Assembly: GCA_027491335.1 (NCBI GenBank)
Contig: JAIXWJ010000040.1
Coordinates: 1 to 39,819, forward strand
Source: Actinomycetes bacterium
GTDB lineage: Bacteria > Actinomycetota > Acidimicrobiia > Acidimicrobiales > Ilumatobacteraceae
Direction of reading: 5' to 3'
DNA: 39,819 bases
In this document: positions 582 to 39,702 of the stretch, one piece after another
Numbering within the stretch: position 1 is the stretch's first letter
How the letters are laid out: each line of letters opens with the position of its first letter
Program-made: the position numbers and the translations under genes
The notes under the pieces: model-generated
The model's database searches: none
What the model was told of the DNA's origin: nothing
The model's input: only the letters and a program-made list of their open reading frames with translations

Positions 582-3445
582 GTGCGTACGACGAGCTTCT
601 CTTCGAACGTTTCGATGAGGTCGCCCTGCTTCAGGTCCTGGAAGTCGGACAGGCCGATACCGCATTCGAAGCCCTCGCGGACCTCGCGGACGTCGTCCTT
701 GAATCGACGCAACGACGTGATGGCGCCCTTCCAGATGATGACTCCCTCGCGGAGGAATCGCACCTTGGTGCCACGCGTGATCTGACCCGAGCGCACGTAG
801 CAACCGGCGATGGCGCCGATCTTGGGCACACGGAAGACCTCGCGCACCTCGGCTTCGCCGGTGACGACTTCCTCGAACTCGGGGGCGAGCATGCCGACCA
901 TGGCGCTCTCGATGTCCTCGAGGAGCTTGTAGATGATTTCGTAGGTGCGAATCTCCACGTGCTCGGCCTCGGCGATTTCTCGCGCCTTGCGGTCGGGACG
1001 AACGTTGAAACCGATGATGGTGGCATTCGTCGCCGCGGCCAGGCTGATGTCGTTCTCCGTGACTCCACCGACGGCGCGGTGCACGAAGGCCAACTTCACC
1101 TCGTCGCGCTCCAGACGCTTCAGGCTCTCGGTGACGGCTTCGAGCGAACCCTGCACGTCGGCCTTCAGCACCAGGTTCAAGGTGGCCACTTCGCCCGCCT
1201 GAATCTGGGAGAACACGTCCTCCAACTTCACGCCGCGCTGAACGCGCGCGTCGCCGCGCTGGGCCTTGGCCCGCAAACGCTGTTCGCGAGCCTCACCCAC
1301 CGTGCGGGCGGTCTTCTCGTCGGGTGCCACGCGGAACTCGTCACCGGCGTGCGGCACGCTCGACAATCCGAGCACCTGCACCGGCGTCGACGGTCCGGCT
1401 TCCTTGATCTGCTTGCCCTTGTCGTCGATCATGGCGCGCACGCGACCCCACGCTCCACCGGCGACGATGGGGTCACCCACCTTGAGGGTGCCCTTGTCGA
1501 CGAGGATGGTGGCCACCGGACCACGGCCGGTGTCGAGGTTGGCTTCCAACACCACGCCCTTGGCGCGACCCGTCGGATTCGCCGTGAGTTCTTCGACCTC
1601 GGCCACCAACGTCAGCTGTTCGATGAGATCGTCGACGCCCAGGTTCTGCTGGGCCGACATCTCGACGCAGATGGTGTCGCCACCCCAGGACTCGGGAACG
1701 AGTTCCTGCTCGGCCAACTGCGCCAACACGCGCTGCACGTCGGCGTTCTCCTTGTCGATCTTGTTGATGGCCACGACCATGGGCACGCCAGCGGCGCGAG
1801 CATGGCTGATGGCCTCCACCGTCTGGGGCATGACGCCGTCGTCGGCGGCCACCATCAACACGACGATGTCGGTGACCTGAGCACCGCGGGCGCGCATTTG
1901 CGTGAACGCCGCGTGACCCGGGGTGTCGATGAAGGTGACCTTCTTGCCGTTCTGGTCCACCTGATACGCACCGATGTGCTGGGTGATGCCACCGGCTTCT
2001 CCGGACACCACGTTCGCGTTGCGGATCTTGTCGAGCAAGGTGGTCTTACCGTGGTCGACGTGACCCATGACGGTGATCACCGGCGGACGCGAGGCCTGAG
2101 CCTCCTCGTCGTCGTCATCGCTGTCATCGAACAACGCCTGCAGTTCCAGCTCTTCTTGCTGACCCGGCTCGACCAACAACAGTTCGGCGCCGATCTCGAG
2201 CGCGAACAGTTCCATCTGCTCGTCGGTGAGGGTCATGGTGGCGGTCACCATTTCGCCGTTCTTCATGAGGAACAGCACCACGTCGGCCGCGGTGCGGTTC
2301 AGACGCGGAGCGAACTCCTGGGCCGACACACCACGCTCGACGACGATGGTGCCCTCGGGCACCGGCGCGCCGGTGGCGCTGTAGCTCTGCATCGAGGGCT
2401 GCAGCTCTTCCTCACCACGACGGCGACGACGACCACCACTGCGCGGCGCACGACGGCCACCGCTCGGACGAGCTCCTCCACCGGGACGTCCGCCACCGGG
2501 ACCACCACCGGGTCGACCGGCACCGGGACCACCGGGACCACCGCCGGGGCGCGGACCGCCGAAGGCACCAGGTGCCCCGCCGGGACGCGGACCACCGGGA
2601 CGCGGACCACCGAAACCACCCGGACGCGGAGCGCCGGTGCGCGGGCCGCCATAGCCGGCGCCACTGGGGCGCGAGCCGGGGGGCGGTGCGGTGCGCGGAC
2701 CACCCGGAGGCGGAGGAACCGGACGACCCGAAGCCGACATCGGACGACCGGGCGGGGGCGGGGGAACCGGACGACCCGACGGCGACAAGGGGCGCGGCGG
2801 TGCGGGCGGGGCCGGGCGAGCGGGCGGGGCTGCCGGAGCGCCAGATGCGGCCGGAGCCGACGGAGCGGCGGGGGCGGCCGGCGGACGACCAGCATCAGTG
2901 CGAGCCGTGTCGGGGCGCGCGGGCGGAGCCGAGGGAGCCGCCGGACGCGGCATCTCCTTGGTGGCATCACGACCCGAGATCACGCGACTGGACTTCACGG
3001 CCGCGGCGGGTGCTGCCGGATCGGTTGCCGACACCTCTGCGGGAGCGGGTGCCTCGACCACGGGAGCCGGGGCCGACGACGTTTCTTGCACCGGGGCCGC
3101 AGTCGGGGCGGGGGCCGCGGTCGGGGCGGCCGGAGCCGGGGTTCCCTCGGTCGCCGTCGACTCGTCGGAACTCGCCGCGTCATCGCCGGACTTCTTCGCC
3201 GCGGCCTTGCCGGTGGCGGCGGCCTTCTTGGGAGCCTTGACCGGCTTCACCTCTTCGGGCTGAACATCACGAACCAGGCCCTGAGCCTTGGCCTTGCGCT
3301 CGAGCAACGGAACGAAGGCATCGGCCAGAGTCGACTGATGCGTCTTGGCGGCAACTCCCTCCGCCTTGCAGAGGTCCAGCATCTCGGTATTGGTCATACC
3401 GAGCTTCTTGGCGAGTTCGCTTACTTTGATCTTGGCTGTTGCCAC
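578..3445 (-). CDS. infB: Translation initiation factor IF-2
   Basis: This is the GTPase that places initiator tRNA on the 30S subunit and promotes subunit joining. The 955-residue product starts with GTG. An N-terminal IF2_N helix region ([17 protein letters not shown]) is followed by a long low-complexity linker at about residues 60-345, rich in Ala/Pro and then in Gly-Pro-Arg runs. A conserved core follows: G1 GHVDHGKT near residue 460, G3 DTPGH near 505, G4 NKID near 562, then the beta-barrel and fMet-tRNA-binding C domains. The linker makes it longer than typical Gram-positive IF-2. It is the fourth gene of rimP-nusA-ylxR-infB, and its stop overlaps the next start by 4 bases. Identification is secure. 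Confidence 0.98.
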
Positions 3446-3497
3446 GCGACGTTCAGTCCTTCGTTGCTCTGTGGTCGGGCGAACCCGACACGGTTGA

Positions 3498-3752
3498 TTA
3501 CTTTGCCATGGTTAGGCGGTTCCTGAGATTGGTGTTCTTGTTGCTCGATCGCGACGCGAAGGCCCGATCGAATCCTCGAGTCGAGAACGCTTTGTCGAGG
3601 CAAACGCTCGAGTTCGTGCAGATCCACGCTCCCCGACCGGCGTCGGTTCGCGAGGCGCGCACCACGCCCGCATCGTCGCGCACGTAACGCGAGAGGGTCG
3701 ACTGTTCCCGACGGGAACGGCAACCCACGCACGTGCGAATCGGAGCGGACAT
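3498..3752 (-). CDS. rnpM: YlxR/RnpM family RNA-binding protein
   Basis: This 84-residue protein starts MSAPIRTCVGCRSRREQ and carries the DUF448/YlxR signature: R-x-C-x-x-C near the N-terminus, then GRGAWIC and a downstream CLDKAFSTRGFDRAF segment. The family fold binds RNA, and Bacillus YlxR (RnpM) modulates RNase P; the role here is inferred from the family. I chose the ATG at 3750-3752, two bases after the nusA stop, over a longer in-frame upstream start because homology begins at the RTCVGC motif and the upstream extension would lie inside nusA. It sits between nusA and infB, the standard bacterial position. Confidence 0.93.
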   Translation of the reverse strand: MSAPIRTCVGCRSRREQSTLSRYVRDDAGVVRASRTDAGRGAWICTNSSVCLDKAFSTRGFDRAFASRSSNKNTNLRNRLTMAK

Positions 3753-3754
3753 GA

Positions 3755-4900
3755 TCAGGCGTTCGCCTCTCCGCTGTCCGCGGCCGGCTGGGACGACATG
3801 CGCTCGTACTCCTGAAGGCTCATGACCGATCCATCCGCGGCGTGCCATTCCTGCTCACCGGTCTCGGGGTTGACCTTCCATTCGCCATCGGCGAATCCGT
3901 CCTCGAAGATGCCGTTGAGCTCGTTCTGATACTGCGTCTCGCTCTTGATATCGATGCGCACACCGGCCAAACGCGACGCCAAACGGGCGTTCTGGCCTTC
4001 CTTGCCGATGGCCAAGCTGAGTTGGAAATCGGGAACGATGACGTCGGCCTGGGTGCGGTCCTCGCTGAGACGAACCTCGGTGACCTTGGCCGGCGACAGG
4101 GCCTTGGCGATGAAGTCGGCCAGGTCCTCGCTGAAGGGGATGATGTCGATCTTTTCCTGATTCAGCTCGTTCACGACCATGCGCACGCGTCCACCACGCG
4201 CACCCACGCAGGCGCCCACCGGATCGACGTTGCTGTCGTTGCTGTGCACGGCGATCTTGGTGCGGTGACCGGGCTCGCGCGAGCAGGCCTTGATCTCGAC
4301 GACGCCGTCGGCGATCTCGGGAACTTCCAGTTCGAACAGACGCTTCACCAAACCGGGGTGCGTGCGGCTGACCACGATCTGCGGTCCGCGCTCGGAGCGG
4401 CGCACCTCGACGATGTAGGCCTTCACGCGCGTGCCGGGGTTGGCGCGCTCGTAGGGAACCTGCTCGCTCTGGGGCATGAGCGCCTCGACCTTGCCCAGGT
4501 CCAACAACGCGTAGCGGTGATCGTTCTGCTGCACGATGCCGGTGACGATGTCGCCCTCGCGGTTCGCGTATTCCTCGAACTTGCGGTCGCGCTCGGCCTC
4601 GCGGATGCGCTGGCCCATCACCTGACGGAAGGTCTGGGCGGCGATGCGACCGAGTTCGTTCTTGCTCGGCGTGTCGTCGCGCTCGTTGACCCAGTTGCCG
4701 TCCTCGTCAATGTCGAAGGCCTTGAAGCTCATCTCCAACGTGTCGGGGTTCAGATTCACTTCGACCTCTTCGGCCGCGCCGGGGCGCTTCTTGTAGGCCG
4801 TCGCCAATGCGTCGACCAGCACCTGCAAGAGGGTGTCTTCGGAGATGTTCTTCTCCGCCGCAAGCAGCTTGATGGCTTCTTTCATGTCGAGATTGCTCAT
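3755..4900 (-). CDS. nusA: Transcription termination/antitermination factor NusA
   Basis: NusA binds RNA polymerase and nascent RNA and affects pausing, termination and antitermination. The 381-residue product contains, in order, an N-terminal RNAP-binding domain (about 1-125), an S1 domain (GDIVTGIVQQNDHRYALLDLG, about 130-200), and two KH domains including GACVGARGGRVRMVVNEL and SLAIGKEGQNARLASRLAG. There are no C-terminal acidic repeats of the E. coli type, as is usual in actinobacteria. The start overlaps the rimP stop by 4 bases. NusA autoregulates its operon leader in E. coli, which is relevant to the hairpin at 5689-5716. Confidence 0.98.
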   Translation of the reverse strand: MSNLDMKEAIKLLAAEKNISEDTLLQVLVDALATAYKKRPGAAEEVEVNLNPDTLEMSFKAFDIDEDGNWVNERDDTPSKNELGRIAAQTFRQVMGQRIREAERDRKFEEYANREGDIVTGIVQQNDHRYALLDLGKVEALMPQSEQVPYERANPGTRVKAYIVEVRRSERGPQIVVSRTHPGLVKRLFELEVPEIADGVVEIKACSREPGHRTKIAVHSNDSNVDPVGACVGARGGRVRMVVNELNQEKIDIIPFSEDLADFIAKALSPAKVTEVRLSEDRTQADVIVPDFQLSLAIGKEGQNARLASRLAGVRIDIKSETQYQNELNGIFEDGFADGEWKVNPETGEQEWHAADGSVMSLQEYERMSSQPAADSGEANA

Positions 4901-5604
4901 GACTCGGAGTGCTCCTGGTCGTCGTGGATGTCTATGTCTTCGAATTCTTCAAGATCTGTGTCGTCGAAATCAGCGTCATCAAAATCTGTCTCGTCGAAAT
5001 CAGCGTCGTTGTCGGCAGACAAGTCTGCCGTGGTCGACGCCGAATCGGCTCCGGACCGAGGTCCCGAACCGGAACTTTTGCCCCGGGCGCCCTTCTTGCC
5101 GCCCGACTTGGCCGATCCGGGCTTGGGCGCGGCCTCCCACACGAACACCGTGCGGGCTCGATCCACCTGATCGAGCGAGATGACCCGCTCGTCACCCGTC
5201 TCCGTGCGCACGGTGAAGTCGGTCTCCGACGCCGCCACCAACACACCCGAGATTCGGCGTTCGCCGTTCACCACGTTGGTGAGTCGAACGGCCACCTGCT
5301 TGCCGATCTCGCGCTGAAAGTGACGGGGCAGACGCAAGTTGCGCTCCAGACCCGGACTGGATACCTCGAGGGTGTACTGACCGGGAATCGGATCGGCGTG
5401 ATCCAGATCGCGTGAAATCAGCCGAGTGGCCCGCGCCAACTGGTCGACGTCCACTCCACCGGGCGATCCCGGAGGCGTGTCGATGGTGACCTTCACGGTG
5501 CCACCGGCGTATTCGAGGTCGTACAGCTCGAGACCGAGGTCGGCGAGAATGGGAAGGGCGAGCTGGCGCACGCTCTCGGTGATGCTGTTGTCGGTGGCGC
5601 CCAT
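4897..5604 (-). CDS. rimP: Ribosome maturation factor RimP with acidic repeat tail
   Basis: RimP assists 30S subunit maturation. Residues 1-160 fit the family: LALPILADLGLELYDLEYAGG at the N-terminus, a central VDVDQLARATRLISRDLD segment, the VSSPGLERNLR motif, and a C-terminal SH3-like part. Residues 165-235 are an added basic-then-acidic low-complexity tail that includes four DxDFD-like pentads, making the 235-residue protein longer than the usual 150-180. The ATG at 5602-5604 follows a good Shine-Dalgarno (GGGAGAG). It is the first gene of the operon, with 187 bases to the divergent proS start. Core function is secure; the tail's role is unknown. Confidence 0.95.
   Translation of the reverse strand: MGATDNSITESVRQLALPILADLGLELYDLEYAGGTVKVTIDTPPGSPGGVDVDQLARATRLISRDLDHADPIPGQYTLEVSSPGLERNLRLPRHFQREIGKQVAVRLTNVVNGERRISGVLVAASETDFTVRTETGDERVISLDQVDRARTVFVWEAAPKPGSAKSGGKKGARGKSSGSGPRSGADSASTTADLSADNDADFDETDFDDADFDDTDLEEFEDIDIHDDQEHSES
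4948..5007 (-). repeat. Acidic pentapeptide repeats in the RimP tail
   Basis: Residues 200-219 of RimP read as four consecutive pentads: DADFD, ETDFD, DADFD, DTDLE. At the DNA level this is a 30-base period with strong similarity between copies (shared core TCGTCGAAATCAGCGTC on the plus strand). The pattern suggests replication slippage or selection for an acidic, aromatic-spaced tail. Confidence 0.85.
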
Positions 5605-5638
5605 GTCGTTCTCTCCCTTCTCCCGCTATCTCTCTCGT

Positions 5639-5666
5639 GTTGCCTCGCTCGAGTTGTCTCGCTCGA
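5639..5666. repeat. Two tandem 14-bp units in the rimP leader
   Basis: GTTGCCTCGCTCGA is followed directly by GTTGTCTCGCTCGA, with one mismatch. The unit carries the self-complementary CTCGAG when read into the next copy. It lies in the 5' untranslated region of rimP between the terminator-like hairpin and the Shine-Dalgarno. No function can be assigned; the RNA copies could pair through CUCGAG. Confidence 0.75.
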
Positions 5667-5688
5667 GTTCACTTCGACCCGAGTGATT

Positions 5689-5716
5689 AAAAAAGACGTG
5701 AGCTTTCGCTCACGCC
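5689..5716 (-). terminator. Intrinsic terminator / probable attenuator in the rimP-nusA-infB leader
   Basis: On the minus strand the sequence forms GGCGTGAGC, loop GAAA, GCTCACGTC, then six T residues. This is a 9-bp stem with one G-U wobble, closed by a GNRA tetraloop, with a U6 tail. It points toward rimP, about 85 bases upstream of its start, and no minus-strand gene lies immediately upstream for it to terminate because proS is divergent. A smaller stem (CCGCC-GTCA-GGCGG on the minus strand) precedes it by about 15 bases. Read on the plus strand the stem has an A-C mismatch and only three T residues, so the orientation is clear. Attenuation of the nusA operon is an inference. Confidence 0.85.
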
Positions 5717-5778
5717 TTTCCGACCCGCCTGACGGCGGAAACCCTCTCAAGACCCCCTGAATGATACAGGTTCCCAAC

Positions 5779-5784
5779 TAACCT
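5779..5784 (+). promoter_or_regulatory. -10 box TAACCT of proS (leaderless)
   Basis: TAACCT ends 7 bases before the proS ATG, so transcription would begin at or next to the A of the start codon. There is no Shine-Dalgarno upstream; CCTCC lies there on this strand, the reverse of one. No convincing -35 box is visible. Confidence 0.6.
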
Positions 5785-5791
5785 CCATCCA

Positions 5792-7585
5792 ATGTTGAGG
5801 TTGTCCAGCCTGTTCGTGCGAACCCTGCGGGAGAACCCGTCCGATGCCGAGGTCCCGAGCCACCAGTTGATGCTGCGCGCCGGCTACATCCGTCGGGCCG
5901 CCCCCGGTGGGTTCACCTGGTTGCCCCTGGGCTGGAACGTCTACCGCAACGTCGAACGTGTGGTCCGCGAGGAAATGGACGCCGCGGGCTTCCAGGAGGT
6001 CCACTTCCCCGCCCTGCTCCCCCGCGAGCCCTATGAAGCCACCAATCGCTGGTCCGAGTACGGACCGAACCTGTTTCGGCTCCAGGATCGACGAGGAGTC
6101 GATTATCTCCTCGGCCCCACGCACGAGGAGATGTTCACCCTGCTGGTGAAGGACCTGTACAGCAGCTACAAGGACCTTCCTCTCGTGATCTACCAGATCC
6201 AGACCAAGTACCGCGACGAGGCTCGCCCCCGTGCCGGCCTGTTGCGCGGCCGCGAGTTCGTCATGAAGGACAGCTACAGCTTCGACATCGACGATGCGGG
6301 CCTGGCCAAGAGTTACGAGGACCATCGTGCGGCGTACATCCGCACCTTCGAGCGCCTCGGATTGCCCTTCGTCATCGTGTCGGCCATGTCGGGTGCCATG
6401 GGTGGCTCCAAGAGCGAGGAGTTCCTGGCTCCCCTCGAAGCGGGCGAGGACACCTTCGTGCGGTGCGCTTGCGGGTACGCCGCCAACACCGAAGCGGTGC
6501 ACGTTCCGGCGCCCGCCGCGGCCCCCATCGATGGTGCCCCCGCGGCCCGGGTGGTCGACACCCCGGGGACGCCGACCATCGCCACGTTGGTGGACCTGTT
6601 GAACGACCGCGCGGATCTGCGTCGGGCCGATCGAGCATGGAACGCCGGCGACACCTTGAAGAACGTCATCGTGATGTTGCGTCACCCCGATGGCCGTCGC
6701 GAACCACTGGCCATCGGATTGCCGGGTGATCGCGAGGTCGACATGAAGCGCCTCGAGGCTCAGGTGGGCCCGGCCGAACCGGAAGCGTTCACCGAAGCCG
6801 ACTTCGCGGCGCATCCAACCTTGGTGAAGGGCTACATCGGACCCGACGTGCTGGGTGCTTCGTCGTCGTCGGGCATTCGTTATCTGGTGGATCCACGCGT
6901 CGTGTCCGGATCACGATGGGTGACGGGCGCCAACGCGGCCGGCAACCACGTCGTCGACCTCACGTGCGGTCGCGACTTCACACCCGATGGCACCATCGAA
7001 GCGGCCGAGGTCGTGGCCGGCGATCCGTGTCCGGCGTGTGCCGAGCGCGCAGCGAACGGAACGCTCGAGATGGCGCGCGGCATCGAGATCGGCCACATCT
7101 TCCAGCTCGGACGCAAGTACGCCGAGGCCCTCGACCTGACCGTGCTCGACCAGAACGGCAAGCAGGTCGTCGTGACCATGGGCAGTTACGGCATCGGTGT
7201 GTCTCGCGCCGTGGCCGCCATCGCCGAGGCCACCGCCGACGACATGGGACTCTGTTGGCCACGCGAGGTGGCTCCGGCCGACGTGCACATGGTGATCGCC
7301 AGCAAAGGTGCCGACGACATCGCCGCCGAGGCCGAACGAATGGCGGCCGAACTCGAGTCGCGCGGTGTTCGTGTGTTGCTCGACGATCGCATCACCGTGT
7401 CCCCCGGCGTGAAGTTCAAGGACGCCGAACTCATCGGTGTTCCCACCATCGTGATCGTCGGCAAGGGCTTGGCCGAGGGCGTGATCGAGGTCCGCGACCG
7501 GGCCTCCAACGAGCGACGCAACATCGCCGTGGCCTCGGCCGTCGAGGAATTGGTGGCCGAGTGCAACACGAACACCCGTCGGTGA
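5792..7585 (+). CDS. proS: Prolyl-tRNA synthetase
   Basis: This class II aminoacyl-tRNA synthetase charges tRNA-Pro in the cytoplasm. At 597 residues it has the bacterial ProS layout: a catalytic core starting [18 protein letters not shown], the motif [33 protein letters not shown] (motif 2 region), an inserted editing (INS) domain at about residues 225-390 that clears mischarged Ala-tRNA, motif 3 GSYGIGVSR, and the C-terminal anticodon-binding domain starting near [14 protein letters not shown]. It is divergent from rimP and leaderless by the signal at 5779-5784. manA follows after 19 bases. Identification is secure. Confidence 0.98.
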
Positions 7586-31907: not shown

Positions 31908-32741
31908 GTGCTCGTCGCCACCGCCTTGGCGCTGGGCGCCGCCGTGCTTCATGCCGGCTGGAACCTGCGCATCAAGCAGTCCGGTGATCGATGGTTGGCT
32001 CTGTGGGGCTTGTTCGCGGCCGGCGGTTTGATCGGTCTGCCGTACACGGTCGTGGCAACGATCTCGGGTGACCTCGGCTGGAACGCGTGGGGTTGGGCCA
32101 CGGCGAGTGGTGCGGTGCACGCGTTCTACATCGGACGTTTGGCGCGCACGTACGACATCGCCGACTTCAGCGTGACGTATCCCATCGCGCGCGGAGCGGG
32201 CGCGCTGTTCGCCGCCATCGGTGGTGTCCTGTTCCTGTCGGACGATCTGTCCACCGTCTCGATGATCGGAATCCTGATCGTGGTGAGCGGTTTGGTGCTG
32301 TTGGCCGGGCACGTGGAATGGAGCCATGTGTGGCCCGCCCTGGTGGTGGGCCTGTTGATCGGTGCGTACACGGTGATCGACAGTCAGGGGTCACGGTCGA
32401 CGGTCGGCAGCGCCTACGCGATGGCCATCTTCGTCACCGGCGGCATCGGCACCACGATTCAGGGTGTGTATCGCGGTCGTTGGGTCGAGATGAAGGCCGG
32501 CATTCCCGCCATGTGGCGCCAGTACATGGCGACCGGCTTGGCGTCGCTGGTGACCTATTGGATGGTGCTGCTGGCGGTGCGACGCGCACCGGTTGGATAC
32601 GTCACCGCATTGCGGGAATCCAGCGTGGTGTTCGCCACCTTCATCGGCTGGAAAGTGTTGAAGGAAAGCAGCGGGATTCGACGCGTGGCCTCGTCGATGG
32701 TGATGGTCGTCGGACTGGTGACGCTGGTGGTGGGACGCTGA
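31908..32741 (+). CDS. EamA/DMT-superfamily membrane transporter
   Basis: The 277-residue product is strongly hydrophobic with about ten predicted membrane segments in two repeats, each with the EamA-like pattern (HAGWNLRIK near the start; YPIARGAGALFAAIGGVLFL; GYVTALRESSVVFATFIGWKVL). Such proteins export metabolites or amino acids; the substrate is unknown. GTG start at 31908, six bases after the Dabb stop. It ends 15 bases before the convergent stop of the TM0106-type nuclease, with no visible terminator in between. Confidence 0.9.
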   Translation: MLVATALALGAAVLHAGWNLRIKQSGDRWLALWGLFAAGGLIGLPYTVVATISGDLGWNAWGWATASGAVHAFYIGRLARTYDIADFSVTYPIARGAGALFAAIGGVLFLSDDLSTVSMIGILIVVSGLVLLAGHVEWSHVWPALVVGLLIGAYTVIDSQGSRSTVGSAYAMAIFVTGGIGTTIQGVYRGRWVEMKAGIPAMWRQYMATGLASLVTYWMVLLAVRRAPVGYVTALRESSVVFATFIGWKVLKESSGIRRVASSMVMVVGLVTLVVGR

Positions 32742-32756
32742 CGATCGCGCCCTTCG

Positions 32757-34691
32757 TCACTCGTACAAGTCGTCCAGTTCCGTCACGCTGCGGAACACCG
32801 GACCACGTCCGTTGAGGCCGTCATCCAGCCATTCCCGCAACACCTTGGTCGCGAGCACATCGTCCTCGTTGTAGCGCAGCAACTTCTCGCTCATCTCGCG
32901 TCGCTGACTCTCGTCGTCGGTGGTGACGACGATCTCGTACCAGAGAATCGAGTTGTCGCCTCCGGCATCCTCGTCACGCCATGAGAATCCGGCCAGCGGA
33001 GCAACCTTTTTCAAACCCAATCCATCCGTGGGCCAGATGAGCGATTCGACGTTCTTCTTCAGGTCCACCCATGAATCGGTGGCACAGAACTGATCGATGG
33101 CTTCGTGGCTCGGCATGCCGGGGAAGTCGGGCCAACGGCCGGCGATCTCGTGCATGCGGGAATTCTCGGCGTCGGTGTAACAGTAGAAGCGCACCGTCGA
33201 ACCGAGTTGCGCGCCCTCTCGAACGACCGCGTGCATCCAGTCCCAGAAAGCCACGAATGCTTCGGCCTCGTCGCGATGTCCGCCGGCCAAGGTGTGGAAG
33301 GGCCGATAGCCGGCCCGCACGCTCGTGGGCGTTCGCGCGCCGTCGCGAACGGTCGCATGCGTTCCCCACAGGTACACGACGTCGGAGTTCTCCATGTCGA
33401 CGTCGATCTCGATGTCGGCTCGCGGGACCTCGGGCACCCCTTCGGCACGAGGAAGGTGCGGCAGACCGTCGGGGTGCAAGCGCACCCGAGCCGAGTCGAT
33501 GCGTCGGGTGACGTTGGAGAACCACGACATCGGGGCCAACTTCGGGTCGAGCGTGGCCAAGTCGGACACGGAGATGAACCCCTCCGATTCCAGGAACTCG
33601 AGAGCCTTCTTGCTTTTTCCGGTGATCTTGGCCACCGAGTCGTCCGGATTGGAATGTTCGGCCGCCACCTTCCAGAACTTGGGCAGATCGATGTTCGCCG
33701 AATGGGCACGATCGAACACGGTCGCCGTACGAACATCGAGTCCGGCCAGTTGCGTCTGGGTGCGAACACCGATGGTGGCCAACTTCTTCACGTGCGCTTT
33801 GGTGACACCGGCGATGAGCGAAACGTGCTCGGCTCGATCCAACTCGTCGTAGCACACGTCCTTCCATTCACAGGTGGAACAGCTTCCGTGCAGAATCGGT
33901 TCGGTGATCGGCTGGTCACCGGCGAGCATCCGGGAAATGGCGTCCCAGCGAAACGTCCATTCGATGTCGAGTATCTCGAGCGCGCTTCGGGATTCGGAGG
34001 TGCCGGTTCCCGGGTGCTCGTGGCGCCACATGGGTTGGTCGAGTCGACGCCAGACCAACTGGAGGTCGATGTCGAAGATGCCACCGACTGGATCCACACC
34101 CGGCGCCCAACCCAACTCGGACAGCATCTCCCAGTAGTGCGCCAGCTGCAACGAGTCGTTCAAAGCAGGCGTTCCGAGCAATTCGATGGAATCGGCCGCC
34201 TCGAGGAACGGAGCATCGATCGACCCGATCGACCACTCCTTGGCCTTGGCCTTGCCATCGAAACCTCGGTGGCTCTTCACGTCGACCGGCACGTAGCCCC
34301 ACGCCGCCCCACCGCTGGATTGATCGACGCGAATCAGGATGTCGGGCTTTCCTGAACGACCCGAAACGGTGGGCAAGCCACCGGCCAGGATGACGCGCGC
34401 GCCCTTGGCCATCGACGCGGCGGTCTCGGCGATCAGATCGTCGGCGCTCATCGCGGGAAGTCGCACCACTCCGTGAGCCGCCTCCAAACGGGCGAAGACA
34501 TCCGCTTCGTGTTCGAATCCCTTCTCCATCAACAACTGCACGAAGGCACTGGGCTCGGTCCGCGGTAGATCGTCGTAGGCGGAATTGCGATTGTTCACCT
34601 CGCGATGGGAACACTCGGTGGTGAAGCGTCCGTCACCGGTGGCGCCGACGGGAATGGTGACTTTCCCGCGAATGGTGCTTGCGTCAGACAA
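32757..34691 (-). CDS. TM0106-type RecB nuclease with C-terminal RNase H-like domain
   Basis: This is a 644-residue product. The N-terminal PD-(D/E)XK part has a family-like LLMEKGFEHEADVFARLE, Asp near 117 (GKPDILIR), Asp-Val-Lys near 137-139 (VPVDVKSH) and the RecB Q-x3-Y motif (QLAHY). Cys27 plus Cys271-x2-Cys274-x5-Cys280 fits a nuclease-associated Fe-S cluster. A helix-hairpin-helix-like middle (SLIAGVTKAHVKKLATIGV) precedes a C-terminal domain with EIDVDMENSDVVYLWG and RYNEDDVLATKVL, resembling a DEDD/RNase H-like exonuclease. I chose TTG 34689-34691 because AAAGGAA stands five bases upstream; GTG at 34706 is the alternative. It overlaps the helicase by 8 bases and is last in the cassette. 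Confidence 0.85.
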   Translation of the reverse strand: MSDASTIRGKVTIPVGATGDGRFTTECSHREVNNRNSAYDDLPRTEPSAFVQLLMEKGFEHEADVFARLEAAHGVVRLPAMSADDLIAETAASMAKGARVILAGGLPTVSGRSGKPDILIRVDQSSGGAAWGYVPVDVKSHRGFDGKAKAKEWSIGSIDAPFLEAADSIELLGTPALNDSLQLAHYWEMLSELGWAPGVDPVGGIFDIDLQLVWRRLDQPMWRHEHPGTGTSESRSALEILDIEWTFRWDAISRMLAGDQPITEPILHGSCSTCEWKDVCYDELDRAEHVSLIAGVTKAHVKKLATIGVRTQTQLAGLDVRTATVFDRAHSANIDLPKFWKVAAEHSNPDDSVAKITGKSKKALEFLESEGFISVSDLATLDPKLAPMSWFSNVTRRIDSARVRLHPDGLPHLPRAEGVPEVPRADIEIDVDMENSDVVYLWGTHATVRDGARTPTSVRAGYRPFHTLAGGHRDEAEAFVAFWDWMHAVVREGAQLGSTVRFYCYTDAENSRMHEIAGRWPDFPGMPSHEAIDQFCATDSWVDLKKNVESLIWPTDGLGLKKVAPLAGFSWRDEDAGGDNSILWYEIVVTTDDESQRREMSEKLLRYNEDDVLATKVLREWLDDGLNGRGPVFRSVTELDDLYE

Positions 34692-36024
34692 TGAGATTCC
34701 TTTCACGGTGATACTCGAGGAACGCGCGATGGAGAGCGTGACCCTTGCCCACCGCGTCGTGGCATCCGAGGGCCTGATCCGCCAACGGCAGATGATCGTC
34801 CAAGGTGGCACCCACGTGATCGCGAGTGACGAAGAAGCACGCCGACTGATGTCGCGACGCCATGACGCACAACCGACCGGTTTCGAGGTCGAACGCCGAA
34901 GGCGCCATGACCCCCGACAACGGATGCACCGCCACCATGACCGGCTTCTCCAGACCCTGCCACCGTTCGGGCGTGGTGACTCGAATGGACGCGTACTTGG
35001 GCGAGAGTTCCCGCAATTCGTTCTGTATCGCGGTGTTCATGAGGTTGTGCGTGGACACCACACCGATGTCGGTGGGTCGCAAGGATCGCGGAGTTTCCTT
35101 CTCGCCCGATTCGGTGGACACTTCGCAACGACGTTCGAGCAATCGCGCGACCATCGCGGCGGTGAATCGAGCCAACTCCACGTCGGTGCCAACCGGCAAG
35201 CCAACCGCCGGGGTGGGCATCTGAATGATCGCGGTGGTCGAGGGGCGTCCCATGGCCCACATGGCCTCGAGGGCGGCATCGATCCCCGTGGCGGCCGGTC
35301 CGTCCGCTCGCGCGCGCTTCGTCGGTCGGATGAATCGCTCCCCCGGCTTGGCGTCGCTGTCGAACTCGAAGTCGTAGAAGCCGTTCACCAATCGCACCGA
35401 GTCGTACGGCAGACGACGACAGGTGGGCAGCCGAAGTTCGGTGCGCAATCCCGTCAGTGCGGGGTTCTCCAAAATCAAGGTCGGCGTCGCTTGATGCGGT
35501 GGATGCTCGGAGGACTCCCAGCGATCGACGTCGATGGCCACCGTGGGAGGAATCTGACCGGGGTCTCCGATGAAGACGTACCGGTCGGCCACGTGGCGCA
35601 CGGGCAAGAAGTCCGCCCACGCCATCTGCCACGCTTCGTCGACGAAGAGAATGTCGAAGTCGCCGTCGAACTTCGACAACGCCAACTTGGACACGGTCGC
35701 GACCATGATGATCGGGCCGTCGGGGATGGCCGCCTTTTTGTCGATGAAGACCACGCGCTCATCGATGTCGTCGGGCGGTTGGTAGCCGGCGCTGGAGAAA
35801 CGCACGACGTTCTGAGTCGGGTAACGCTGAGCGATTCGTTCGCAGATCTCGTCGACCTGATTGTTGGTTTGGGCCGCGATCACGATGCGTCGACGGCCCT
35901 TGATGCCGGCCGCGAGTGCCTCCACCAGGGTGTAGGTCTTTCCCGACCCGGGCGGGGCTTTCACCACGGCGATGGCCCCCGAGCCGACCACGAACGAACG
36001 CAAGGCCGTGACGACGGAACTCAT
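34684..36024 (-). CDS. Superfamily 1 helicase (Upf1/Dna2-like), compact form
   Basis: The 446-residue product is nearly only a helicase motor. Walker A is APPGSGKT at 23-30, motif Ia AAQTNNQVDEI at 50-60, motif II FVDEAW at 127-132, motif III GDPGQIPP at 153-160, an ELRLPTCRRLP segment near 196-206 in the position of the family's QYRM motif, motif IV VVSTHNLMNTAI near 322-333, motif V TTPERWQGLEKP near 350-361, and motif VI ASRHQSACFFVTR near 389-401. Upf1/Dna2-type proteins usually have a large domain before motif I; here it is missing, and the upstream 505-residue protein may supply it. ATG 36022-36024 overlaps that gene's stop by 4 bases. Confidence 0.88.
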   Translation of the reverse strand: MSSVVTALRSFVVGSGAIAVVKAPPGSGKTYTLVEALAAGIKGRRRIVIAAQTNNQVDEICERIAQRYPTQNVVRFSSAGYQPPDDIDERVVFIDKKAAIPDGPIIMVATVSKLALSKFDGDFDILFVDEAWQMAWADFLPVRHVADRYVFIGDPGQIPPTVAIDVDRWESSEHPPHQATPTLILENPALTGLRTELRLPTCRRLPYDSVRLVNGFYDFEFDSDAKPGERFIRPTKRARADGPAATGIDAALEAMWAMGRPSTTAIIQMPTPAVGLPVGTDVELARFTAAMVARLLERRCEVSTESGEKETPRSLRPTDIGVVSTHNLMNTAIQNELRELSPKYASIRVTTPERWQGLEKPVMVAVHPLSGVMAPSAFDLETGRLCVMASRHQSACFFVTRDHVGATLDDHLPLADQALGCHDAVGKGHALHRAFLEYHRERNLIV

Positions 36025-37538
36025 TCGTCGGCTCCCTCGTCCGGATCGACATCGAGATCGATGTCGGAGGAGATCTCGCGACGGAAGTAGTCGAGGATGT
36101 CGAAGCCGCTCTCGGTCGTGGCGTTGATTCGGTAACTCATGCTCTCCGTGAAGAACACCGGGAAGTCCTCGATGAGGATCAATTGACGGCCCCTCCACGT
36201 GGGATCGGATGCTCGCTTGGCCATGGGGCCGGAGGAATACTTGGCGGCCGACCACGACGGAATCACGATCATCGTGCGTTCCTCGACGGAGACCGAAAGC
36301 ACCTTCAACTGCAGCTTCGGTGCGCCGGCGATGGTGAGCGACCCACCGACCTTGACGTCGGGAACCGCCGGAAAGTCGTGCATCAATGTCCAGCGGGCTC
36401 CGCCACCTTCGACGGCGACCACCTTGGCGCGAACCCCGTGACCCCGCATCAACTCTTCTTCCTGCAGGTCGCGGTCACCGTGAACGAGCGAGTGCATCAC
36501 CTGACGGGATGCCGCCACTCGCTGCTGGTAGGAGAACGCCGCTTGGCGCGCACCGTTGTCGCCGCGCAGGCCCGGCCAATACGCGCGCACCTCGGGATCG
36601 TCGGAGAGTTCGCGCAACACCTGGTCCCACCACAGTCGACTGAACTTGTCCACGCCGATGCGCACGAGATCGGACAGACCGGCGTTCGCTCCGCGCGGAT
36701 CCTTGCGCAGTTTTTCGATCGTTTTCACCGTGAGCGAATGACGATGTCGCAATTGCTCACCCAGAACCTCGGCGATCTCGCGCGCCACCCGTTTGCCCTT
36801 CGCGGCGCGTTGTTCGCGCGGAGGCGCATTCCAACGTTCCACCAACGGCTGGACGGCGGTGCGTTCGAACTCGGGGTCGAGGGTGGTGGCCACCGACGAC
36901 TTCTCGGCTTCGGTGGCCGCGCGCAGTCGCGAATCACGCGTCTTTTCGCGACCCATCCACGCGAGCAGGTGACCGAGATGGGCCTGCCGAACGGGCGAAC
37001 TGGGAAAGTCGAACGCCGTGGTCAGGGCGCTCGACGCCACCACCACGGTCTGCTGGCCCGGTCGTTGGGCATCGACGAACAAACAGTTCGCCAGGTTGCC
37101 CAGTGCCCGCAGAACCTCGACGTCGGCTCGTTGCCACGTGGTGCGGGCGTAAGCGAACGCGACCGAGTGCAGCAGTTCGAGATGCGAGATTCCCGGCACC
37201 CAGATCTGTCGGAACTCGTACACCGACATCGCTTCGTCCACGTCGGATGCGAACGTCGGATGACCGAAGTGCTCCAGGACGATGCGCCCAATCTCCACCA
37301 TCATGTCGGCCACCATGTCGCGGTCGCGCGGATCGGGAACGCCGAACACGCGAGGTTCCTCGTGCGGATGGCCGACCGCCACCGCCCATGGCAAGGATTC
37401 GCCACCCATTCGCACGAACGACAGACACAGAATCTCGTCGTCGTCGCCCACGTGAACGTTCACCTTCTCGCCACGCGGAATCGGACGTCCCTCGTGCCAC
37501 GCCCGCAAACGTCGGATGGTGCGCAGTTCGTTGGTCAT
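36021..37538 (-). CDS. Cassette protein of unknown function (possible helicase partner)
   Basis: I recognise no family in this 505-residue protein. The N-terminal 100 residues are mixed alpha/beta (GEKVNVHVGDDDEILCLSFVRM); about 100-350 is largely helical, with many Arg residues; about 375-470 looks beta-rich (RAKVVAVEGGGARWTLMHDF, GGSLTIAGAPKLQLKVLSVSVEERTMIVIPSW), as expected for a small beta-barrel; the last 15 residues are acidic (DIDLDVDPDEG). No nuclease or ATPase motif is visible. Its start overlaps the upstream nuclease stop and its stop overlaps the helicase start, each by 4 bases. Given those overlaps it could be the missing N-terminal module of the helicase as a separate chain; that is inference. 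Confidence 0.8.
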   Translation of the reverse strand: MTNELRTIRRLRAWHEGRPIPRGEKVNVHVGDDDEILCLSFVRMGGESLPWAVAVGHPHEEPRVFGVPDPRDRDMVADMMVEIGRIVLEHFGHPTFASDVDEAMSVYEFRQIWVPGISHLELLHSVAFAYARTTWQRADVEVLRALGNLANCLFVDAQRPGQQTVVVASSALTTAFDFPSSPVRQAHLGHLLAWMGREKTRDSRLRAATEAEKSSVATTLDPEFERTAVQPLVERWNAPPREQRAAKGKRVAREIAEVLGEQLRHRHSLTVKTIEKLRKDPRGANAGLSDLVRIGVDKFSRLWWDQVLRELSDDPEVRAYWPGLRGDNGARQAAFSYQQRVAASRQVMHSLVHGDRDLQEEELMRGHGVRAKVVAVEGGGARWTLMHDFPAVPDVKVGGSLTIAGAPKLQLKVLSVSVEERTMIVIPSWSAAKYSSGPMAKRASDPTWRGRQLILIEDFPVFFTESMSYRINATTESGFDILDYFRREISSDIDLDVDPDEGADE

Positions 37539-38653
37539 GATGCGCCATCCAGCGGATTACGCATGCGACGCAGAAAATCACGTTCGATGTCGTTGCGGGG
37601 CCGTGCGCCGCCCATCAATTCGTCGGCGCGATGCAACGAGAGCCCGTTCAAGAACCGGTCGATGTCGTCACCCAACGCCGCTCCGTCACCGTCGGCGATG
37701 GCTTTGGCGTAGCACGACGGAGCGCGCTCGCAGAACGACAGGCACGCATCGGCGAACGACGTGGGGGCGGCCAGCACCATGTCGAAGAGGCTCTTGGGAC
37801 CTTCACCCTCGTCATCGCCCACCATGTCCGACATGTCGCGCGCCGCGGCCTCCATGAGTTCGAAGCCCTTGCGCGCTCGTTCGGCCTGATAGCGCAGATC
37901 CTCACCGACCCGCACCGTCGGATTGTTGGAGCCGGGGTTCGTGAGAACGAGGAAACCCTCGAGCGACAACTCGACGAGATCGGCCAGACCCAACTGTTCC
38001 AACACCATGGCCAACGCGTGTACGTACAGACCCATCTGGGCGCGGGCGTGGGCCAGATCGGACTTCGAGGTGTGGCCCCCTCGATCGGCGTAGGTCTTGA
38101 TCTCTCCCACCGAAACGACGGGCCGACCCCCGTCGAGCCGCACCGACAACGCATCGATGATGAGGGTGGCCTCGGGCAACATCACGCCCTTGGGAATGCG
38201 CAAGGTCGCGCTGGAGACGACGCCTTCGAAGGATCCTTTGGCGAAGGATCCTTTGGCGAAGGATCCTTCGGCGGCCAGCGTCCGCAGAAAGTCTTCCGTG
38301 TGGTCGATGGCATCGTCGATATCGGTCAACGGACCGCCGTTGATGGAGATGCGAAAGTCGAGGAACCGCGGGTCGGGTCCGGCGAACATCTGCCGCACGG
38401 CCATGGCGCGCAACAACTTCTCTCCCCCGTTCGCCACGAGGCCGGCTTCGAATCGCCGACCGCGCGCCAGCGCGAACACGGACTGCCCTTCCTTGGGTGC
38501 GGCCGGGTTTTCCCGTCGAGCGACCGCGCCCATCTTCACGTTGTGCACCGCCGACACGAGGTTGGCGCCGCACCCGGGGTGTTTGACCCATTGCTCGAAA
38601 CGACGACGGGTGTCGCGCCGATTGGCGGGAAGGGGCACCGGTACGGAGTTCAT
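37535..38653 (-). CDS. Cas4/AddB-like PD-(D/E)XK nuclease with putative 4Fe-4S site
   Basis: The 372-residue product heads the cassette. It has Cys28, then the PD-(D/E)XK core: Asp167 (LIIDALSVRL), Glu184-Ile-Lys186 (VGEIKTYADRG) and the RecB motif Q206-x3-Y210 (QMGLYVHA). It closes with Cys304-x3-Cys308-x5-Cys314 (CLSFCERAPSC), so one N-terminal and three C-terminal cysteines bracket the nuclease as in Cas4 and AddB Fe-S nucleases. This points to 5' end processing of DNA. Residues about 129-143 hold a GSFAK tandem repeat in a probable loop. The ATG at 38651-38653 has no clear Shine-Dalgarno. A 16-bp palindrome lies 9 bases upstream. Confidence 0.85.
   Translation of the reverse strand: MNSVPVPLPANRRDTRRRFEQWVKHPGCGANLVSAVHNVKMGAVARRENPAAPKEGQSVFALARGRRFEAGLVANGGEKLLRAMAVRQMFAGPDPRFLDFRISINGGPLTDIDDAIDHTEDFLRTLAAEGSFAKGSFAKGSFEGVVSSATLRIPKGVMLPEATLIIDALSVRLDGGRPVVSVGEIKTYADRGGHTSKSDLAHARAQMGLYVHALAMVLEQLGLADLVELSLEGFLVLTNPGSNNPTVRVGEDLRYQAERARKGFELMEAAARDMSDMVGDDEGEGPKSLFDMVLAAPTSFADACLSFCERAPSCYAKAIADGDGAALGDDIDRFLNGLSLHRADELMGGARPRNDIERDFLRRMRNPLDGAS
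38228..38272. repeat. Three tandem 15-bp palindromic units inside the Cas4-like gene
   Basis: GAAGGATCCTTTGGC occurs twice and GAAGGATCCTTCGGC once, in direct succession. On the coding strand they encode GSFAK-GSFAK-GSFEG. Each unit contains the 10-bp palindrome AAGGATCCTT. The frame is kept because the unit is a multiple of three. Confidence 0.95.
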
Positions 38654-38698: not shown

Positions 38699-39649
38699 TC
38701 AGAAATAGATGATCTTCTCGGCGCGGGCCTCGGCCTCGTCGAGATCGTCGGTGTAGGCCCCCGTGGAGAGGTACTTCCAGCCGCCGTCGCACACGATGAA
38801 CACGATGGTGCCTTCCTCGATCTCCGAGGCCACCTTGGCCGCGCCCGCGAGCGCCGCACCGGTGCTGATGCCGGCGAAGATTCCGCATTCGCGCACGATG
38901 CGGCGGGTCCATTCGATGGATTCGCGCGGGCGCACCACGCGCTTGCGGTCGAGGATGTCGAAGCCGTGCCAGTTGTCGAACAACGGCGGAATGTAGCCCT
39001 CGTCGAGATTGCGCAGACCCTCCACGCGTTCACCCAACGGAGGCTCGACCGCGATGATCTTGACGTCGGGCTTGTGCTCTTTCAGGAAACGACCGGTGCC
39101 CATGAGCGTGCCACTGGTGCCCAAGCCCGCCACGAAATGAGTGACCTCGGGGCAGTCGCGCAGGATTTCGGGGCCCGTGTTCTCGTAGTGAGCCCGCGGG
39201 TTGGCGTCGTTGGCGTATTGGTAGAGGAAGCACCATTCCGGGTTGGCCTTGGCCATCTCGATGGCGCGCGCCACGGCACCGTTGCTGCCCTCTTCGCCCG
39301 GCGTGAGGATGATCTCGGCGCCGAAGATCTCGAGCATCTGACGCCGCTCGATGGACACGCTGGTGGGCATGAGAATCTTGATGGGGTAACCCTTGATCTG
39401 GGCGATGGCCGCCAGCGCGATTCCGGTGTTGCCCGACGAGGGCTCGATGATGGTTTGGCCCGGCACGAGACGACCGTTCTTCTCGGCGTCTTCGATCATG
39501 GCCTTGGCGATGCGATCCTTCACGGAGCCGAACGGGTTCTGGCTCTCGAGCTTGGCCAGCAGACGCACACGAGGATTCGGCGACAAGCGGCTGACATCCA
39601 CCAACGGGGTGTTGCCGATCAGATCGAGAACGCTTTCGTGCGGGATCAT
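38699..39649 (-). CDS. cysM: Cysteine synthase, CysM type (possible O-phosphoserine sulfhydrylase)
   Basis: This is a fold type II PLP enzyme making cysteine. The 316-residue protein has LIGNTPLVDVSRL, the PLP lysine Lys44 in NPFGSVKDR, EPSSGNTGIALAAIA, VAGLGTSGTLMGTGRFLKEH and GIFAGISTGAALAGA. It resembles M. tuberculosis CysM in sequence pattern, including GLRNLDEGY with Arg213, which I believe corresponds to the phosphoserine-binding Arg220 there. The ATG at 39647-39649 is chosen over an in-frame GTG two codons upstream because AGGAGG is well spaced from it. It has its own promoter, and the product may use thiocarboxylated carrier protein or sulfide. Confidence 0.95.
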   Translation of the reverse strand: MIPHESVLDLIGNTPLVDVSRLSPNPRVRLLAKLESQNPFGSVKDRIAKAMIEDAEKNGRLVPGQTIIEPSSGNTGIALAAIAQIKGYPIKILMPTSVSIERRQMLEIFGAEIILTPGEEGSNGAVARAIEMAKANPEWCFLYQYANDANPRAHYENTGPEILRDCPEVTHFVAGLGTSGTLMGTGRFLKEHKPDVKIIAVEPPLGERVEGLRNLDEGYIPPLFDNWHGFDILDRKRVVRPRESIEWTRRIVRECGIFAGISTGAALAGAAKVASEIEEGTIVFIVCDGGWKYLSTGAYTDDLDEAEARAEKIIYF

Positions 39650-39702
39650 GCTCACCTCCTACCGACCGATGTGGGGACTAATTCCCTACCAAGACACTCG
39701 GG

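Follow-up and report, generated by a model that had tools for sequence, protein, structure and literature searches.

Introduction

The bacterial complexes RecBCD, AddAB and AdnAB combine helicase and nuclease to act on DNA ends, and a genome survey reports that 88% of the surveyed genomes encode one or other of them (PMC6452273). A related combination is found in a single polypeptide, Bad of Geobacillus stearothermophilus, which is reported to consist of a RecB-family nuclease of the iron-sulfur (Fe-S) kind, a conserved central domain whose structure is unknown and a superfamily 1B (SF1B) helicase, with a sporadic occurrence in bacteria, an adjoining type III methyltransferase in Geobacilli and a suggested regulation by methylation (PMC7430649). 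In this study, we describe a cassette of four overlapping genes, A, B, C and D, in a stretch of 39,819 nucleotides (the window) from an uncultured actinomycete of the family Ilumatobacteraceae (GenBank assembly GCA_027491335.1, contig JAIXWJ010000040.1). A literature search, with preprints and most subscription journals beyond its reach, found no description of this gene set. The reading that we favour, with moderate confidence, is that A-B-C-D is a RecBCD-like DNA-end processor residing in the chromosomal slot of RecBCD, and that A-B-C is a split machine of the Dna2/Bad type, long resident in this lineage and reused in defence elsewhere. Its novel aspect would be this split design and its unusual interchange with RecBCD in nature.

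The cassette resembles RecBCD, AddAB and AdnAB in pairing helicase with nuclease, in the fold of A, which is like the nuclease domains of AddB and AdnA, and in the slot that it has in common with RecBCD. It differs from them in its motor family, its two separate nucleases and its lack of a UvrD-type (SF1A) motor. No family match to a RecC-, AddB- or AdnB-type partner was obtained for A to D in Pfam or NCBIfam, nor was an SF1A motor fused to a C-terminal nuclease found among them, C having a marginal UvrD match and no nuclease. Because both the RecC-type partner and the SF1A motor were tested for and not encountered, the sequences place the cassette outside the RecBCD family, though we read it as working like RecBCD. 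The UvrD-type motor-nuclease fusion typical of the three complexes does occur as gene E of other A-B-C loci. RecC contributes a non-catalytic fold to the RecBCD complex, and the probably inactive fold of B would be comparable to it in this respect.

With Bad, likened here by its published domain order and not by sequence, A-B-C shares a colinear arrangement and, at some loci, a type III methyltransferase neighbour, whereas Bad is a single polypeptide and the cassette has three genes plus D. Compared with eukaryotic Dna2, A corresponds to the nuclease, the C-terminal part of B to the barrel and C to the helicase, but these are three genes and B has an extra exonuclease-like domain. The joining of nuclease and helicase in one polypeptide, a trait of Dna2 and Bad, was not found; the genes are separate, with their own stop codons. 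Fused TM0106 RecB-RNase_H_2-helicase proteins (~1100-1200 aa) are similar to D in their N-terminal half and to C in their helicase (hhalign E 3.7e-24), but they show no profile similarity to A and only a weak one to B, in which residues 348-425 match the linker preceding the helicase with a probability of 16%.

A chromosomal slot shared with RecBCD

In the window, the cassette lies between genes for a cysteine synthase (CysK) and a membrane protein that we take to be EamA-like. Both flanks were searched for in 13 members of the genus, and the slots of nine were fetched. The cassette stands at this slot in 12 genus genomes, six with both borders seen and six with a single one, and in G008 a D fragment adjoins EamA. 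RecBCD genes are found at the slot in five genus members. The entire CysK-EamA interval is visible in G006 and G007, with RecC, RecB and RecD in the direction of CysK, and parts of it in three: the genes of G003 are divided between two contigs (CysK-RecC and RecB-RecD-EamA), G016 has a partial RecC-RecB-RecD series up to EamA, and G005 has a RecD adjoining EamA with RecC on other contigs, the CysK side of the last two being outside the view. RecD scored above its NCBIfam cut-off, and RecB and RecC below theirs though far above chance. In a third state, CysK and EamA are adjacent (15-36 bp apart in G001, G011 and G019) and A-B-C-D has another location, where it is whole in G001 and G019 and spread over two contigs in G011; match coordinates give adjacent flanks and a cassette elsewhere for G010 also. 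In L131, seven extra genes separate CysK from RecC (1033-7206), one of which resembles a DnaQ-type exonuclease by eye.

In a tree of CysK and EamA, the five RecBCD genomes are nested inside the 12 cassette genomes and the three slot states need two changes, while forcing the cassette genomes into one clade costs 103 log units, a test named after the tree had been seen. With first and second codon positions, the RecBCD rows need two changes and still fall inside the cassette species. Since RecBCD species nest among cassette species, the tree indicates that the two were swapped at the slot at least once. The simplest history would have the cassette first and RecBCD later in one subclade, the monophyly of the RecBCD rows being moderately supported (69/79). 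Because RecBCD occupies the same spot in related species, the cassette may be an unrecognised substitute for it.

RecC (PF04257) was matched in none of the 15 B-bearing genus members and in four of the nine others (Fisher p 0.012, kinship ignored); when G016 is counted with RecBCD and G008 with the cassette, the figures become 0/16 and 5/8 (p 0.0013, kinship ignored). PF04257 had no match in the genome of the window, which is 94.6% complete, and gene C was not found in the RecBCD genomes of the genus, nor in G008, G009, G017 and G021. Among the genomes of the A-B-C loci, 21 with D-type loci, seven of them placed according to the clade of their A or B because their contigs end before D, contained RecC once (G730, identical to G232; locus L052) and no AdnAB-like pair, while 14 genomes with non-D loci contained RecC in four cases, an AdnAB-like pair in 12 and at least one of the two in 13. 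An AdnAB-like pair denotes two nearby PDDEXK_1 matches, mostly in long frames (separate contigs in G038, and some short frames), and is not specific to AdnA and AdnB; many of the genomes are incomplete. This contrast is not independent evidence, because there is overlap between the 35 locus genomes and those of the genus, and most of the D-type ones appear from their titles to belong to one family. Of 37 other family members (G024-G060), 11 have RecC and another 13 an AdnAB-like pair, with no genome having both.

A number of observations weigh against an equivalence with RecBCD. The cassette and RecC are found together in G730, and distant A-B-C genes coexist with RecBCD or AdnAB-like pairs. 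G009, G017 and G021 gave no match to B, C or RecC, and both RecC and AdnAB-like pairs are missing from 13 of the 37 further genomes of the family, so the lack of such a complex is tolerated; the latter figure argues against its being indispensable here. A search of the 24 genus genomes with PF12705 gave, apart from a single frame of 969 aa in G022, only frames shorter than 450 aa and no AdnAB-like pair, but these negatives are weak because the same search missed the RecB of the genus's RecBCD genomes. There is only one motor among A-B-C-D, and the fold matches of B are moderate in strength. The slot takes other genes too, as in L131, and may therefore simply accept inserts. Finally, the genome survey reports that RecBCD in Actinobacteria serves single-strand annealing and not homologous recombination (PMC6452273).

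Domain content of the four proteins

The families of A to D were searched in Pfam, NCBIfam and PADLOC (E limit 1), and relatives by sequence in the PDB, which were found for C and not for A, B or D. Gene A matched no family. Its motifs and structural model identify a PD-(D/E)XK nuclease of the Cas4/AddB/AdnA/Dna2 type with cysteines C28, C304, C308 and C314, the four-cysteine (iron-staple) arrangement of RecB-family nucleases, and it probably carries an Fe-S cluster. The fold matches of the model are chiefly to DNA nucleases (Cas4, lambda exonuclease, AddB, AdnA and Dna2). All 11 checked positions of A are retained in seven distant homologue sets (two Streptomyces plasmids, Nonomuraea and four further genomes), drawn from seven of nine distant loci, with L112 and L113 left out.

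Gene C matches Pfam AAA_11 and AAA_12 and, below its cut-off, TIGR00376. As a single sequence it retrieves weak relatives from the PDB, and as a profile SMUBP2, DNA2, UPF1 and SEN1, with DNA2 directly below SMUBP2. These matches identify an SF1 helicase core of the Upf1/SMUBP2/DNA2 kind, probably SF1B with 5'-3' polarity. Over 21 aligned rows, nine of 11 motif positions are invariant and the other two show conservative changes (T30, Ser in four rows; D129, Glu in one); all nine checked positions are retained in the seven distant sets. No 1B domain of its own was recognised in C. With SMUBP2, UPF1 and SEN1 among the nearest solved relatives of C, an RNA- or R-loop-processing complex could be envisaged, but the DNA nucleases that dominate the fold matches of A, the position of DNA2 just after SMUBP2 and the slot held in common with RecBCD make this very improbable.

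Gene B, described by the first-pass annotation as an unrecognised protein, has indeed no family match above chance level, yet its model (predicted local distance difference test score 87) can be read as a DEDD-exonuclease fold joined to a stalk/barrel (1B) domain of the Upf1/Dna2 helicase type. The first catalytic motif (DxE, motif I) is missing from residues 34-50 in 31 of 31 rows, and the exonuclease-like domain is probably catalytically dead. This alignment holds the window and 30 of 35 B-bearing loci (L046, L048, L049, L063 and L064, incomplete or broken, were dropped); two other alignments are hand-picked subsets of 23 and 20 loci plus the window. In L063 and L034, stop codons in frame break up B, the reading frames of A and C being intact.

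Gene D matches TIGR03491 (6.6e-50; 170.4 bits, above the curated cut-off of 97.45) and RNase_H_2 (2.5e-12), which identify it as a TM0106-family RecB-like nuclease with four cysteines and a C-terminal, DEDD-like RNase_H_2 domain. All 16 positions that were checked, the DEDD-like residues among them, are the same in each of 10 rows. The families assigned earlier to A, C and D, and the two distinct nucleases, are thus upheld by profile searches and models, with A and D both PD-(D/E)XK nucleases with cysteine sets, and the suggested third exonuclease activity is plausible in view of the invariant DEDD-like residues. Elsewhere, L126 (7022-10391) encodes a split TM0106-type pair, in which the SF1 helicase is a gene of its own behind that for a D-like protein; the pair has an HNH protein immediately upstream.

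Proposed mechanism and significance

A-B-C would form a three-subunit helicase-nuclease of the Dna2/Bad type, in which A is the nuclease, probably with an Fe-S cluster, and C the SF1 motor core. B would supply the 1B domain missing from the motor, together with a probably dead exonuclease fold serving as a scaffold or DNA-tracking module, and D would contribute another nuclease of this kind, coupled to a DEDD exonuclease. In the genus of the window, the cassette may act on double-strand DNA ends, both in break processing and in destroying linear foreign DNA, and would thereby fill the role that RecBCD has at this slot in related species. A dead fold in B could have a function parallel to that of RecC, which is credited with reading Chi. 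A more specific version, which we regard as possible rather than probable, is a further solution to the task of RecBCD, AddAB and AdnAB, in which B lends a 1B domain in trans and its dead exonuclease fold tracks or reads the unwound strand, the whole being exchangeable with RecBCD at one locus and having found further use in defence islands and next to Wadjet.

If the favoured reading is true, a further end-processing complex might explain part of the genomes outside the 88% given in the survey (PMC6452273), and bacterial end processing would be tied to the eukaryotic Dna2 design. Related species with either the cassette or RecBCD would constitute a natural exchange experiment. Gene B may also suggest how the central domain of Bad, so far unassigned, is folded, provided that the two prove similar when compared directly.

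Gene order, composition and distribution

The four genes (Table 1) are read from the minus strand in the order A-B-C-D and are linked by overlaps of 4, 4 and 8 bases, as the first-pass annotation had stated and the open reading frames bear out. For D, an in-frame TTG with the same 8-base overlap is listed in nine of 10 relatives having both C and D, while the gene caller preferred a start at 34706. The GC content of the four genes (0.62-0.645) is close to that of the window (0.648), in accordance with the earlier remark on base composition, which is native to the genome. The ratio of non-synonymous to synonymous substitution rates (dN/dS) is ~0.10-0.15 for the nearer pairs.

Table 1. Coordinates of the cassette genes, their mapped domains and the bordering genes in the window.
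Feature	Coordinates	Strand	Remarks
Gene A	37535..38653	-	372 aa
Gene B	36021..37538	-	505 aa
B residues 34-292, DEDD-exonuclease-like region	36663..37439	-	model and alignment
B residues 328-494, aligned to IGHMBP2 1B region	36057..36557	-	model; residues 486-505 low confidence
Gene C	34684..36024	-	446 aa
Gene D	32757..34691	-	644 aa, TTG start
D residues 539-622, best RNase_H_2 stretch	32826..33077	-	Pfam search
Cysteine synthase (CysK/CysM), upstream slot border	38699..39655	-	TIGR01136 above cut-off; co-directional, 45 bp ahead of gene A
EamA-like membrane protein, downstream slot border	31908..32741	+	convergent; TIGR03340 6.6e-30, under its cut-off

The proposal that the genes form a conserved unit was examined by a neighbour test, and A, B and C proved adjacent wherever contigs allow. 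Of the 100 genomes in the relatives set, 18 gave a match to gene B, and 15 of these belong to its 24-member genus part; the match in G083 is taken as chance. When 18 stretches taken from relatives were examined by tblastn, eight had the four genes in order, seven were cut by contig ends, two (L034 and L035) had A-B-C with D undetected and one (L037) had none; this recurrence is not due to chance. Searching with gene A yielded 37 loci, of which several came from genomes already in the relatives set, and B was next to A in 35, the exceptions being L071 (B undetected) and L075 (A at a contig end). C followed B on all 30 contigs extending past B, and was itself followed by D in 14, by E in eight, plus L073 with E beyond a type III pair, by neither in four (L055, L056, L057 and L066) and by a contig end in three. 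In the gene B tree, the 19 D-type rows form one clade (support 100/100). None of A, B and C was shown to be a universal, separate repair gene, the alternative against which the unit had been tested.

Elsewhere the cassette is rare, with matches in five of 296 genomes of the class and in 15 of 396 of the phylum (three strong and 12 weak matches); in six weak matches that were opened, A and C were called in all and B in five (L111-L115 and L117). A-B-C was found on contigs titled Actinomycetota, Gemmatimonadota (Palauibacter) and Acidobacteriota. On the Planctomycetota-titled contig of L071, with its A-like gene, a 505-aa unassigned gene was also called. The D-type loci L049 and L074 come from metagenome-assembled genomes titled Bifidobacterium breve, and such loci otherwise occur in Acidimicrobiia-like ones; the titles may be wrong.

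Defence neighbourhoods of distant A-B-C loci

In seven non-D loci, A-B-C lies beside type III restriction-modification genes, as judged by clustering with family matches on two representatives, and forms with E and the type III pair a recurrent six-gene island (L058, L062, L063, L065, L068, L069 and L073). E (~915 aa) consists of a UvrD helicase and a PDDEXK_1 nuclease with four invariant cysteines and is convergent on C. These islands, and the type III methyltransferase that adjoins Bad in Geobacilli (PMC7430649), are compatible with a restriction-type effector under methylation control, degrading DNA without the host methyl mark as suggested for Bad. We consider this improbable, as the cassette of the window is flanked by genes for cysteine synthase and a membrane protein, the ten proteins around L070 and L074 matched no methyltransferase model and the type III pair is missing beside A-B-C-E in L059 and L061.

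The main alternative to our reading is a system dedicated to defence against phages or plasmids, in which A-B-C would recognise and degrade invading DNA with D, E or a neighbouring restriction system as partner and the slot would be just an insertion hotspot. Besides the type III genes, non-D loci adjoin Azaca (L057), HEC-05 (GmrSD by Pfam; L055), a Schlafen-group helicase (L056), a type IIG restriction enzyme and an Orf5/HEC-06 match (both L061) and, on two Streptomyces plasmids, an apparent Wadjet operon; five of 10 tested neighbour proteins of non-D loci had no PADLOC match at 1e-10. The spread over Actinomycetota, Gemmatimonadota and Acidobacteriota, with A alone on a Planctomycetota contig, and the seven other genes in the slot of L131 would also fit. 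We nevertheless hold such a system to be rather unlikely in the lineage of the window, where the cassette keeps to one slot in the 12 genus genomes, has a native composition and alternates with RecBCD. Ten proteins that flank L070 and L074, two other D-type loci, gave no PADLOC match at 1e-10, the window's own further neighbours not having been searched. In PADLOC-DB 2.0.0, the four proteins match the models of no single known defence system: A and D gave no match, B a chance-level one (0.046) and C partial helicase matches, the best to MkoA (1.5e-11). The earlier proposal of an undescribed defence system suits the distant A-B-C loci, which adjoin defence genes, better than the window's lineage, with its CysK/EamA borders and RecBCD-alternating slot, in which the repair role first offered as an alternative is the better reading. 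The proximity of A-B-C to Wadjet and restriction systems suggests one module for repair and defence alike.

The two plasmid loci, L108 (NZ_CP027023.1, 3212-14021) and L109 (NZ_CP108489.1, 9911-20722), carry A-B-C homologues directly preceding genes annotated as DUF3375, DUF4194, SbcC/MukB-like or ATP-binding protein and JetD, which, in view of the JetD name, we take to be Wadjet JetABCD. In both, an unknown 281-aa gene stands immediately before A.

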